Assembly: GCA_023251895.1 (NCBI GenBank)
Contig: JAHEXX010000008.1
Span: 1 to 37,688, forward strand
Direction of reading: 5' to 3'
Source of the DNA: a bacterium
GTDB taxonomy: Bacteria > Actinomycetota > UBA4738 > HRBIN12
Length of the DNA stretch: 37,688 nucleotides
Below the pieces are notes generated by a model, which was not told the origin of the DNA, did no database searches, and was given only the letters and a program-made list of their open reading frames with translations. Both the position numbers and the translations under genes were made by a program. Shown here one piece after another: positions 25,423-30,826 of this stretch. The stretch's first letter is position 1. Each line of letters begins with the position of its first letter.

Positions 25423-25938
25423 ATGCCGATGCCGAGCATGCCGCCCAGCGACTTGACCGCCCAGGCCCTCACCGGGTTGATGCCGCCACCGTCGGCCCGG
25501 ATGACCATGGGGAGGAAGGGCATCCCGCTCCTCGGGAAGGTCCCACTCTTCTCAGGACTGTCCAAACGGCATCTGCGACGGTTGGCCGACCTGGCCGAGG
25601 ATGTGCGGTTCGCGGGGGGTCGGCAGATCGTGCAGGCCGGCACGCCGGGGAAGGCGTTCTTCGTCATCCTGGAGGGGAACGCCAAGGTGTACCGCGGTGT
25701 CGTTCCAACCGGGCGAGCGATCGCGCGGCTCGGTCCCGGCGATTTCTTCGGAGAGCTGGCCCTTTTGGACGGTGGTCCGCGCACCGCGTCCGTCGTGGCG
25801 GACAGCCGCGTGACGGCGGTGCGCCTGTCGCGGGGCGCCTTTCAGAAGCTCCTGAAGTCGGAGCCGGACATCGCGGTGGCGATCATGGTCGGGCTGGCGC
25901 GTAGGGCCCGCGAAGCGGGCAAGCTCCTTACCGAGTAG
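25423..25938 (+). CDS. cyclic nucleotide-binding (Crp/cNMP) domain protein
   Basis: VPLFSGLSKRHLRRLADLAEDVRFAGGRQIVQAGTPGKAFFVILEGNAKVY...LGPGDFFGELALLDGGPRTASVVA; no HTH after the domain. Confidence 0.87.
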   Translation: MPMPSMPPSDLTAQALTGLMPPPSARMTMGRKGIPLLGKVPLFSGLSKRHLRRLADLAEDVRFAGGRQIVQAGTPGKAFFVILEGNAKVYRGVVPTGRAIARLGPGDFFGELALLDGGPRTASVVADSRVTAVRLSRGAFQKLLKSEPDIAVAIMVGLARRAREAGKLLTE

Positions 25939-27118
25939 CGCCGGCCCGGCGGACGAGGGTCAGGCTCCACGCCGCAGCCAACGCGATGGCGGCGGTGACG
26001 GCCAGGTTGCCGAGGGTGGCTCCGGCGATGCCGGCGACCGCGGCGATGACCAGGTTGGCGCCGCGAAGATCGGCGATGAGCCACGCGTGGCGGATGCCGG
26101 CGTACACCAGGAACCCGGCCAACGCCCAGACGGGGAGCAGTCCGAGGATCACGGGAACCTGGCTGCCGAAGAACAATCCGATCGTGGCAAGGATCGACCC
26201 GATCAGCACGTTCATCCCCGCCGTCCGGGCACCCAGTCGGACATGCGCGGTCAGGCCGCCGGCGCCGTGGCACATGGGCATGCCGCCCAGGATCCCCGCG
26301 GCGACGTTCCCGATCCCGTCGGACAAGCAGACGCGGGCGGCCGTGACCCGCCTGGCCCGCTCGCCGAAGTAGTCGTGGGACAAATCGGTCACCGCGACCA
26401 CCGCGTTGCCGAAGGTCAGGGGGAACTGGGGGACGACCAGTAGCCAGAAGGCCGTCGCGAAGGCGCTCGCCGGCGGCACGGAAAGGTTCGGGAGCACGAG
26501 CCCGGGGGCTCCCAGGTCGGGATGGACCGACGCCGCGGTCGCGACGATCCCGGCGACGAGCAGTACCAGCGCGGCCCAGAAGTGCCGGGTCCTGGCGGCG
26601 AAGACCACGCCCAGGAACGTGGCGGCGGCCAGGACCACGGGCCACGGCGACGGCGGGACGCCGGCGAACACGGCGGGCGGCTTGGCCACCAGCTTGTAGG
26701 CGGCGATCGACAACAGGATGCCGACCCCGAGCTGGAGGGCCCGGATCACCGGCTTGGTGAAGATCCTCGCGACGACTTCGGCCGCGCCCCGGATCGAAAG
26801 GAGTAGGAGGATGGCGCCGAGCTCGATCCCCGCCGCGCGGATCACGCCCGGCGCGAGCTGCTCCGCTACAGCGACGGCGGTGAGCGCCTTGAGGGGTTGA
26901 ACCGGGAAGGGGACCCGGAAGAACAACCCGGCCCCCAGGTAGAGGAGTCCGGCGCACAGCAGTACCGAGCCAGCGTCGAGCCCGTTCACCAGGATCAAGG
27001 CCGCGGCGAGGGGGATCAGGACCCCGAGGTCGGCTACGGCGCCTGCCGCCTCGCCCGTGCCGATGCGGAAGGGTGACCCTCTCGCCGGCGAGGCGGTCGG
27101 AGCTTCGACGGCCCTCAT
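25928..27118 (-). CDS. MOT1-type putative sulfate/molybdate transporter
   Basis: GAVADLGVLIPLAAALILVNGLDAGSVLLCAGLLYLGAGLFFRVPFPVQPLKALTAVAVA...; molybdate context from the adjacent TOBE gene. Confidence 0.8.
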   Translation of the reverse strand: MRAVEAPTASPARGSPFRIGTGEAAGAVADLGVLIPLAAALILVNGLDAGSVLLCAGLLYLGAGLFFRVPFPVQPLKALTAVAVAEQLAPGVIRAAGIELGAILLLLSIRGAAEVVARIFTKPVIRALQLGVGILLSIAAYKLVAKPPAVFAGVPPSPWPVVLAAATFLGVVFAARTRHFWAALVLLVAGIVATAASVHPDLGAPGLVLPNLSVPPASAFATAFWLLVVPQFPLTFGNAVVAVTDLSHDYFGERARRVTAARVCLSDGIGNVAAGILGGMPMCHGAGGLTAHVRLGARTAGMNVLIGSILATIGLFFGSQVPVILGLLPVWALAGFLVYAGIRHAWLIADLRGANLVIAAVAGIAGATLGNLAVTAAIALAAAWSLTLVRRAGATR

Positions 27119-28921: not shown

Positions 28922-29317
28922 CTAGGCGGCCTTCGTCTCCCAGAAGACCTTGGCGATCTCATCGATCGCGTCCAGGAGCTTCTGACCCTGTGCCGGGTCC
29001 TCGGACTTCTTCGCCTCGCCGGCAAGCTTGGTGGCGTTCCAGAAGAGGTCGTGGAGGTTCGGGTACTTCTGAAGGTGCTCGGGCTTGAAGTAGTCGGTCC
29101 ACAGCACCCACAGGTGCTCCTTGACCATGTTCGCCCGCTCCTCCTTGATGGCCACCGCGCGCTCCCGGAACACCGGGTCCTCGTTACCCTGGTACTTCTC
29201 CTGGCAGGCCCTAACCGACTCGGCCTCGATGCGGGCCTGGGCCGGGTCGTAGACGCCGCACGGGAGGTCGCAATGCGCGTGGACGACTCGGCGGGGTTTG
29301 AGCAAAGCTGTCAGCAT
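28922..29317 (-). CDS. sodN: nickel-containing superoxide dismutase
   Basis: MLTALLKPRRVVHA|HCDLPCGVYDPAQARIEAESV Ni-hook motif after a short propeptide; SD AGAAGGAGG. Confidence 0.95.
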   Translation of the reverse strand: MLTALLKPRRVVHAHCDLPCGVYDPAQARIEAESVRACQEKYQGNEDPVFRERAVAIKEERANMVKEHLWVLWTDYFKPEHLQKYPNLHDLFWNATKLAGEAKKSEDPAQGQKLLDAIDEIAKVFWETKAA

Positions 29318-29777
29318 GCCGCCTCCTTCTGATCGGGACCTAGGAGAAACCTATCACCGTGGTCGGAAATGGAGGCAAGCCGGGATCTCCGCGGGGCTGG
29401 CGGCGGGGGCCGTCCTCCTGCACAGCCTGATCCGGTACCGGCCCTCCAGGGTCGAGGTGACCGGGCCCAGCATGGCTCCGACCCTGGAACCCGGAGATTG
29501 GGCGGTGGCCGTACCGGCACGTCGCGTCCACTCGGGCGACATCGTCGTGATCGAACACCCGAAGGAGGAAGGCCTCGAGATGGTCAAGCGCATCGTGGCG
29601 GGTCCTTCTGCCCTCACGCCCGACGGCCGGCTCCTGGGTCCGGGCGAGTTCTGGGTGGAGGGCGATGATCCAGCGCACTCGACCGACAGCCGCGACTTCG
29701 GCCCCATCGGCCGCGACCGGATCAGGGGGCGGGTCCGCCTGATCTACTGGCCGGCCCGGCGCCGCCGCCTCCTGTGA
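29316..29777 (+). CDS. sodX: Ni-SOD maturation protease (S26 signal peptidase-like)
   Basis: VEVTGPSMAPTLEPGDWAVAV, DIVVIEHPKEEGLEMVKRIVAG, FWVEGDDPAHSTDSRDFGPI; divergent from sodN. The alternative TTG start at 29298 gives a longer overlap. Confidence 0.88.
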   Translation: MPPPSDRDLGETYHRGRKWRQAGISAGLAAGAVLLHSLIRYRPSRVEVTGPSMAPTLEPGDWAVAVPARRVHSGDIVVIEHPKEEGLEMVKRIVAGPSALTPDGRLLGPGEFWVEGDDPAHSTDSRDFGPIGRDRIRGRVRLIYWPARRRRLL

Positions 29778-29828: not shown

Positions 29829-29858
29829 TTGCCCGAAACATCACCTGGGCGGTAGGAT
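29829..29858 (+). promoter_or_regulatory. putative promoter for the poly-Cys leader / tusA-dsrE transcript
   Basis: TTGCCC - 18 nt - TAGGAT; the -10 element ends 12 nt before the leader ATG. Confidence 0.45.
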
Positions 29859-29870
29859 TTGCACCTGCGA

Positions 29871-29978
29871 ATGATCAGGACGCGCGAAGCCGGAGTCGTC
29901 GGGGCCATGATCCCCTGCCGCTGCTGCTGTACCGGGGTGCACGGCGGCGGCTCGCCCCACGCGTCCGCCCGCCGGTAA
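29871..29978 (+). CDS. putative poly-cysteine leader peptide (35 aa)
   Basis: MIRTREAGVVGAMIPCRCCCTGVHGGGSPHASARR*, 47 nt upstream of the tusA ATG. Confidence 0.6.
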   Translation: MIRTREAGVVGAMIPCRCCCTGVHGGGSPHASARR

Positions 29979-30025
29979 GGCACCCACCTTCTTCCGTTCT
30001 TTCCATCCCTAGGAGGTTCCGTCGT

Positions 30026-30256
30026 ATGGCCGTCATCACGCGCACCGTCGATGCCCGCGGGCAGTCCTGCCCTGGTCCCCTCGTGACCCTAGCCCGCCAG
30101 CTGAAGGAGGCGCAGGCTGGCGACCTCCTCGAGCTGCTCGCGACCGATCCCGGTTCCAGGTCGGACGTTCCCTCGTGGGCCGAGCTCTCCGGCAACGAGC
30201 TGCTCGAGGCGGCCGAGGGGAACGGGGTCTTCCGTTACGTGATCCGAAAGCGATAG
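30026..30256 (+). CDS. tusA: TusA-family sulfur carrier protein
   Basis: VDARGQSCPGPLVTLARQLKEAQAGDLLELLATDPGSRSDVPSWAE; CPxP motif; SD AGGAGG at 30011. Confidence 0.92.
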   Translation: MAVITRTVDARGQSCPGPLVTLARQLKEAQAGDLLELLATDPGSRSDVPSWAELSGNELLEAAEGNGVFRYVIRKR

Positions 30257-30268
30257 GAGAGGAGCCCG

Positions 30269-30826
30269 ATGAGCGAGCGGGAGATGACCAACACCGAGCG
30301 GGAGCTTGCGGAGGTCGTGTCGGCCGCGGCCGAGGAGCGGGGGCGCAGCAAGAGGGACAAACTGGCCATCATCGCCTGGGACGGCCACCTCGACCGGATC
30401 TGGCCCACGCTGATCCTGTCCACGACGGCCGCGGCGAGCGGCATGGAGGTCAGCGTGTTCTTCACGTTCTGGGGGTTGTTCGCCTTGGTGAGGCCGGGCG
30501 TGCGGATCACCGGGAAGGACTGGATGACGAAGGCCCTGTCGGTCATGAACCCGGGGAGCCCCGGGAGGGCCAAGCTCAGCCGCTACAACTTCGCCGGCGC
30601 CGGGCCGTGGATGTTGGGCAAGTTGGCCAAGGACTACAAGACCCCGCATCCGTCCGAGCTGCTCGAGATGGCCCGGGACATGGGCGTCCGCCTGATCCCG
30701 TGCCAGATGACCATGGACCTGATGGGACTCACCAAAGAAGACCTGCTCGACGGCCTGGAGGAGCCAATCGGCGCGGCCACCGCGCTGCTCGAGATGAAGG
30801 AAGCCGCGATTCAGCTGTTCATCTGA
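30269..30826 (+). CDS. DsrE/DsrF/DrsH-like (DsrE2-type) protein
   Basis: KLAIIAWDGHLDRIWPTLILSTTAAASGMEVSVFFTFWGLFALV... GVRLIPCQMTMDLMGLTKEDL. Confidence 0.88.
   Translation: MSEREMTNTERELAEVVSAAAEERGRSKRDKLAIIAWDGHLDRIWPTLILSTTAAASGMEVSVFFTFWGLFALVRPGVRITGKDWMTKALSVMNPGSPGRAKLSRYNFAGAGPWMLGKLAKDYKTPHPSELLEMARDMGVRLIPCQMTMDLMGLTKEDLLDGLEEPIGAATALLEMKEAAIQLFI

Follow-up and report, generated by a model that had tools for sequence, protein, structure and literature searches.

Leader peptides with runs of cysteine codons have been predicted 5' of mycobacterial cys operons; no terminators accompany them, and Rho was suggested instead (Seliverstov et al. 2005, PMC1262725). According to the accounts given in PMC9031893 and PMC13236596, Canestrari et al. 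(2020, Mol Microbiol) showed that polycysteine leaderless ORFs act as attenuators of cysteine genes in M. smegmatis. The window, by which we mean the whole stretch of 37,688 nucleotides analysed here, belongs to the assembly (2.49 Mb, 94% complete) of an uncultured actinobacterium whose named relatives are themselves uncultured Actinomycetota, e.g., HRbin12, KatS3mg013, and AC_69. The sequence-only reading that preceded our analysis proposed that a leader peptide containing cysteine codons controls a sulfur operon in this window, and that core idea is supported by the recurrence of such leaders before other sulfur-assimilation operons. We regard it as nearly certain, on comparative grounds, that the ORF encodes a real, conserved leader peptide and did not arise by chance. 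That it is the regulatory leader peptide of a cysteine-responsive attenuator seems to us likely, although we infer the stalling, the cysteine dependence, and the direction of control.

The ORF, which is unannotated, extends from 29871 to 29978 on the forward strand (ATG at 29871-29873, TAA at 29976-29978) and encodes 35 amino acids, MIRTREAGVVGAMIPCRCCCTGVHGGGSPHASARR. Its stop codon lies 47 nt before the ATG of tusA at 30026, and the earlier claim that a 35-codon ORF had been missed at this place is borne out. The proposed regulated gene, tusA (30026..30256, +), encodes a sulfur carrier/transferase (PF01206, E 1.1e-23), and it is followed in the operon by a gene of the dsrE2 type (30269..30826, +; PF13686, E 2.6e-43). 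The promoter-like sequence TTGCCC-N18-TAGGAT is present 5' of the ORF as first described. Its -35-like hexamer, TTGCCC (29829..29834, +), was not called by a consensus scan; its TTG recurs at the same place in most tusA leaders of the 17-member alignment. The -10-like hexamer, TAGGAT (29853..29858, +), follows after an 18-nt spacer and falls in a TA(G/A)(G/C)AT-like block conserved in the same alignment. Transcription of the window leader is predicted to start at approximately 29864-29867. With the -10 element 12 nt 5' of the ATG, the tusA leaders have a predicted 5' UTR of about 4-7 nt, and other leaders have longer ones. These predictions, like the earlier suggestion that transcription starts within a few nucleotides of the ATG, point to a near-leaderless message, not to a strictly leaderless one.

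Just 5' of the leader are sodN, for a nickel superoxide dismutase (TIGR02753), and a gene for its likely maturation protease, which overlap in opposite orientation (28922-29317, -; 29298-29777, +). A sodX-like sequence is also found 5' of the leader in two other loci (L003, L004), and a MOT1-type molybdate transporter gene (PF16983; window 25928-27118, -) is located near the sulfur and Ni-SOD genes.

The tusA-dsrE2 loci of other genomes were gathered by DsrE homology, and the region 5' of tusA was then inspected without using the leader sequence. In 17 of 17 leader-type loci, 16 of them in the window's family (the window included) and 1 in a sister family, a homologous ORF was present whose end lies 47-88 nt 5' of the tusA start as aligned; the sequence-only reading had named lack of the Cys run in homologous tusA-dsrE leaders as evidence against itself, and the leader is conserved throughout this set. 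A third family in the order contributes 2 tusA-dsrE2 loci that have no leader and in which tusA comes after a flavoprotein-like gene, and the same gene arrangement is found at the second tusA-dsrE2 pair of the window genome (G000:C69:16166-16696, L137), which has neither the leader nor the operator considered below. Outside this lineage, in Chloroflexota and in other Actinomycetota, the tusA-dsrE loci that were examined have no CC-containing short ORF just 5' of tusA. In one genome (G004; L006 and L033), the tusA alignment is split between two frames, one for residues 1-41 and the other for residues 42-75, possibly through a frameshift or an assembly error.

The leader is not confined to tusA. 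A DNA pattern made from its conserved core identified 45 copies, spread over 20 genomes with one to three in each and all within one uncultured Actinomycetota order; the reversed pattern, used as a control, gave zero matches, and the leader pattern is absent from the other 371 of the 398 genomes sampled from the phylum. The family consensus, [MVL][IV]RTRxxGxVGAMIPxR[LIC]C(C), is followed after Cys19 by a tail that varies in sequence and length and has no conserved C-terminus, and the complete peptides are 22-38 aa long. The genes 3' of the leaders are tusA-dsrE2, a two-domain rhodanese/thiosulfate sulfurtransferase gene (sseA), and genes for sulfite reductase (sir), PAPS reductase (cysH), carbonic anhydrase, and a DUF3303 protein. 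The last two targets occur in single families only, and nearly all 45 leaders precede sulfur operons; membership in a family placed before several sulfur-assimilation operons suggests that the leader is probably a built-in cysteine sensor. The window genome itself has a second leader, before a sulfurtransferase gene (G000:C70:26784, VIRTREQGLVGAMIPSRLCCSRFGARPEGAEGRVRP). The DUF3303 gene is the one preceded by a leader in L109/L140 and L110; a protein recognised by eye as ClpS-like comes next in L109, and the L110 leader would begin with CTG. No known leader-peptide family model matches the leader ORF, an Rfam search of the leader returned chance-level matches only, and the 1.5-kb regions upstream of cysH in other Actinomycetota, where cysH often seems to lie behind another gene, yielded no informative related Cys leaders.

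Change among these leaders is of the kind expected if the peptide itself matters. For a tusA set selected without the leader pattern, the synonymous share of codon differences is 49%, compared with 20% (sd 6%, max 39%) when columns are permuted, and in the two alternative frames the share falls to 17% and 4%; the synonymous-site bias that had been suggested as something to look for in related genomes is therefore there. Largely synonymous codon change indicates selection on the peptide itself, including the part that comes before the Cys codons. Positions outside the first search pattern behave in the same manner: Arg17 is found in 45 of 45 leaders and is specified by five different codons, and Arg3 is found in 39 of 45. 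This degree of N-terminal conservation exceeds what simple sensing by Cys codons needs.

The Cys codons of the window leader (TGC CGC TGC TGC TGT, 29916..29930, +; Cys at 29916-29918 and 29922-29930) are the predicted stall site. The sequence-only reading had taken the poly-cysteine run to be the key feature, and here it has to be corrected, since conservation does not extend to the contiguous run: Cys19 never varies (45/45), Cys20 is present in 36 of 45, and in most leaders the conserved 17-residue N-terminus is followed by one to three Cys codons. The window leader reads CRCCC at this point, many others read CC, some have a single or split Cys, and several (ICAC, LCGC, LCGM, LCRR) have no adjacent Cys codons at all. 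The choice of codon is also uneven. Codon 19 is TGC in 41 of 45 leaders; codon 20, where it encodes Cys, is TGT in 35 of 36 cases, against a background in which TGC is 5.5 times commoner (TGC:TGT 829:151). The TGT bias at codon 20 points to a constraint at the level of the codon or the RNA.

What the RNA downstream contributes appears to differ from operon to operon. The minimum-free-energy fold of the window leader has a predicted hairpin over all the Cys codons (29917..29951, +), in which 29917-29932 pairs with 29937-29951 over 15 bp; the helix proposed earlier, 29920-29930/29941-29951, is a shifted alternative of it. The complementarity of that helix, with G-U pairs, is genuine, but in the window it is no stronger than in shuffled sequences (z -0.33). 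Over the 17 tusA leaders the Cys-codon helix is better than chance in a duplex test against shuffles (mean z -1.32, p 0.0013), with a p value that is generous given the relatedness of these sequences. Fragments of 70 nt show no excess of Cys-codon pairing over shuffles, and the complete leader RNA of the window does not fold better than its shuffles (z +1.0). A candidate helix for sequestering the Shine-Dalgarno sequence of tusA (29986..30017, +), which joins ACCUUCU at 29986-29992 to AGGAGGU at 30011-30017, leaves that sequence predicted as paired in the window. We consider it a weak candidate because accessibility across the 17 tusA leaders equals that of shuffles, and sequestration as a general switch was rejected on thermodynamic predictions of accessibility (0.21 free, 0.20 stalled, 0.21 shuffled).

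Within 90 nt after the leader stop, a strong hairpin resembling an intrinsic terminator was found in 17 of the 28 non-tusA leaders, where shuffles predict 0.7, and in none of the 17 tusA leaders, that of the window included. Typically it has the form GGCCGCC..GGCGGCC, and most have a T-containing tail. Equilibrium folding predicts that a stalled ribosome abolishes the terminator only at some loci and leaves many unchanged; L092 is a case of predicted loss (0.94 free, 0.06 stalled, 0.95 with the ribosome at the stop). The intergenic gap of the tusA leaders is C-rich (48% C vs 21% G), a composition that would suit Rho and is proof of nothing.

The alignment of tusA leaders shows almost no variation in one stretch, TTGCACCTGCAA, which lies 3' of the -10 element and 5' of the leader ATG and forms a palindrome around a 2-nt centre. 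The window copy, TTGCACCTGCGA (29859..29870, +), has 1 mismatch, overlaps the predicted transcription start, and abuts the leader ATG; 16 of the 17 tusA leaders have the element with at most one mismatch, and in most of these loci the -10 element is directly 5' of it. Exact copies number 57 in 17 genomes of the family, against one control match, and 52 of the 57 are at promoters of Fur-type regulator or sulfur genes. When sites were assigned by reading the flanking ORFs, 13 fell to a Fur-family regulator, 12 to a Prok-JAB/Mec-like peptidase, 3 to a single-domain rhodanese, and 5 elsewhere; the remainder fell to leaders, those of tusA (11), sulfurtransferase (6), sulfite reductase (4), and cysH (3). 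The regulator (L155:442-900; PF01475, E 3.5e-22; orthologs L191-L206) is present in 16 of the 17 family genomes, and in 16 of 16 its own promoter has a TTGCACCTGCAA site with at most one mismatch. The window genome has exact or one-mismatch sites; no ortholog of the regulator was found in its 94% complete assembly, the best match having 28% identity. Overlap with the predicted start in the tusA leaders suits a repressor, and the sharing of the element among the promoters of leaders, Mec peptidase, and Fur-family regulator suggests a second, transcriptional layer of control. It is likely that the Fur-family regulator binds the TTGCACCTGCAA operator. The Mec-like Prok-JAB peptidase genes have the operator at their start in L147, L153, L163, L165, L173, and others, and a ThiF gene comes next in L147; in several loci the peptidase start codon overlaps the operator (TTGCACCTGCAATG), which suggests near-leaderless mRNAs.

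We suggest that transcription starts inside the TTGCACCTGCAA-like element and that a ribosome would then load at the AUG close to the 5' end. Under a shortage of Cys-tRNA, this ribosome would stall at the conserved Cys codons (position 19, and usually also 20), possibly aided by the conserved nascent sequence RTRxxGxVGAMIPxR, and would hold the downstream RNA in a permissive state, allowing tusA-dsrE2 to be expressed. When cysteine is plentiful, the ribosome would reach the stop codon and leave, and expression would be attenuated. For the sseA, sir, and cysH leaders the attenuating element is probably the intrinsic terminator; the tusA class would probably rely either on Rho, terminating within its C-rich gap of 47 nt, or on pairing that involves the Shine-Dalgarno sequence of tusA. 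As a second layer, a Fur-family regulator would probably repress these promoters through TTGCACCTGCAA.

What the genomic comparison establishes, at the level of sequence, is that the peptide is conserved and goes together with sulfur operons, that one class of leaders has terminator-like hairpins, and how the operator is distributed. Whether these amount to a lineage-specific, two-layer sulfur regulon is a broader proposal, for which we see the chances as about even. Under it, the peptide family, whose selected nascent sequence ends in Cys codons, would be a ribosome-read cysteine sensor with an operon-specific output (an intrinsic terminator at sseA, sir, and cysH and another route at tusA-dsrE2), and a Fur-family repressor acting through TTGCACCTGCAA would also control mec and its own gene.

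The conservation of the N-terminus raises the possibility of an arrest peptide, in which the nascent RTRxxGxVGAMIPxRLCC would itself halt the ribosome upon sensing a ligand or a redox state (e.g., a thiol or persulfide on the nascent cysteines) and not the charging of Cys-tRNA. Conservation of approximately 17 residues before the Cys codons, at the amino acid level and across paralogous operons, speaks for such a peptide, as does the presence of only one strictly invariant Cys. That invariant residue, however, is the very amino acid that the regulated pathways make as their end product, a feature shared with classical attenuators, and the sequence showed neither a recognisable arrest motif nor a match to any family model; we consider arrest of this kind unlikely. 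Protein-level conservation and association with sulfur genes would also fit a functional small Cys-containing protein (e.g., one binding metal or sulfane sulfur) that is co-expressed with the sulfur genes. Against this, which we think very improbable, stand a length of 22-38 aa without a conserved C-terminus, a number and spacing of Cys that vary, a position always immediately 5' of the operon, and the terminator-like hairpins that follow 17 of 28 non-tusA copies.

The leader might also do nothing more than boost tusA translation, by coupling or reinitiation, with no cysteine sensing involved. Such a function would fit the short gap to tusA, the strong Shine-Dalgarno sequence of that gene, and the near-leaderless start, but it leaves the invariant Cys19, the sulfur-centred targets, and the terminator-like hairpins of the sister leaders unexplained, and we give it very little credence. 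An ORF this short, with no annotation or family model, could in principle have occurred by chance in GC-rich intergenic DNA; its conservation at 17 tusA loci (45 loci in all), its synonymous changes, and its absence from controls make chance a negligible prospect. The cysteine-responsive attenuator remains our preferred reading.

The present findings widen the probable reach of control by cysteine leader peptides, adding an uncultured order of Actinomycetota and the target tusA-dsrE2, and the leader family they define is specific enough for automatic annotation. Because a genome can combine one leader sequence with different downstream elements, it becomes testable whether the response is set by the nascent peptide in addition to its Cys codons. 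For sulfur assimilation, a candidate regulator of the Fur family can also be named, together with its operator. We found no Fur-family sulfur-assimilation regulator with a TTGCACCTGCAA operator in the open-access literature that was searched, and if the proposal is true, a Fur-type regulator of this process would be new to the sources searched.

Known Fur-family regulons (Fur, Zur, PerR, Nur) resemble the one proposed here in having a palindrome at promoters and at the regulator's own gene, and the regulator matches PF01475; here, in contrast, the putative targets are those of sulfur and cysteine assimilation, and the best NCBIfam scores are far below the cut-offs for PerR, Fur, and Zur. With trpL-type attenuators the leaders share codons for the end product of the pathway and, in 17 of 28 non-tusA copies, a terminator-like hairpin; they differ in that the tusA class has no terminator and that predicted stall-dependent loss of the terminator is limited to some loci. 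The tusA class is closer to the leaders of Seliverstov et al. (2005, PMC1262725), which likewise have Cys codons near the stop, no obvious terminator, and a pyrimidine-rich gap for which Rho-dependent termination was hypothesised. That set, compared here without its peptide sequences, has no intrinsic terminators, unlike our sseA/sir/cysH class. As far as the polycysteine leaderless sORFs of mycobacteria are described in the accounts cited at the outset, they share with the present leaders a short Cys ORF at or near the mRNA 5' end, a position before sulfur or cysteine operons, and several such operons per genome. Set against those same accounts, the leaders described here belong to an uncultured order and usually have 1-3 Cys codons after a conserved 17-residue N-terminus; they add tusA-dsrE2 as a new target, are followed in many copies by intrinsic-terminator-like hairpins, and share the TTGCACCTGCAA operator, while Shine-Dalgarno sequestration is unsupported by folding. 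On present evidence the system works like the mycobacterial Cys leaders, and it differs from them in its peptide, its few Cys codons, its targets, the terminator of one class, and its operator.
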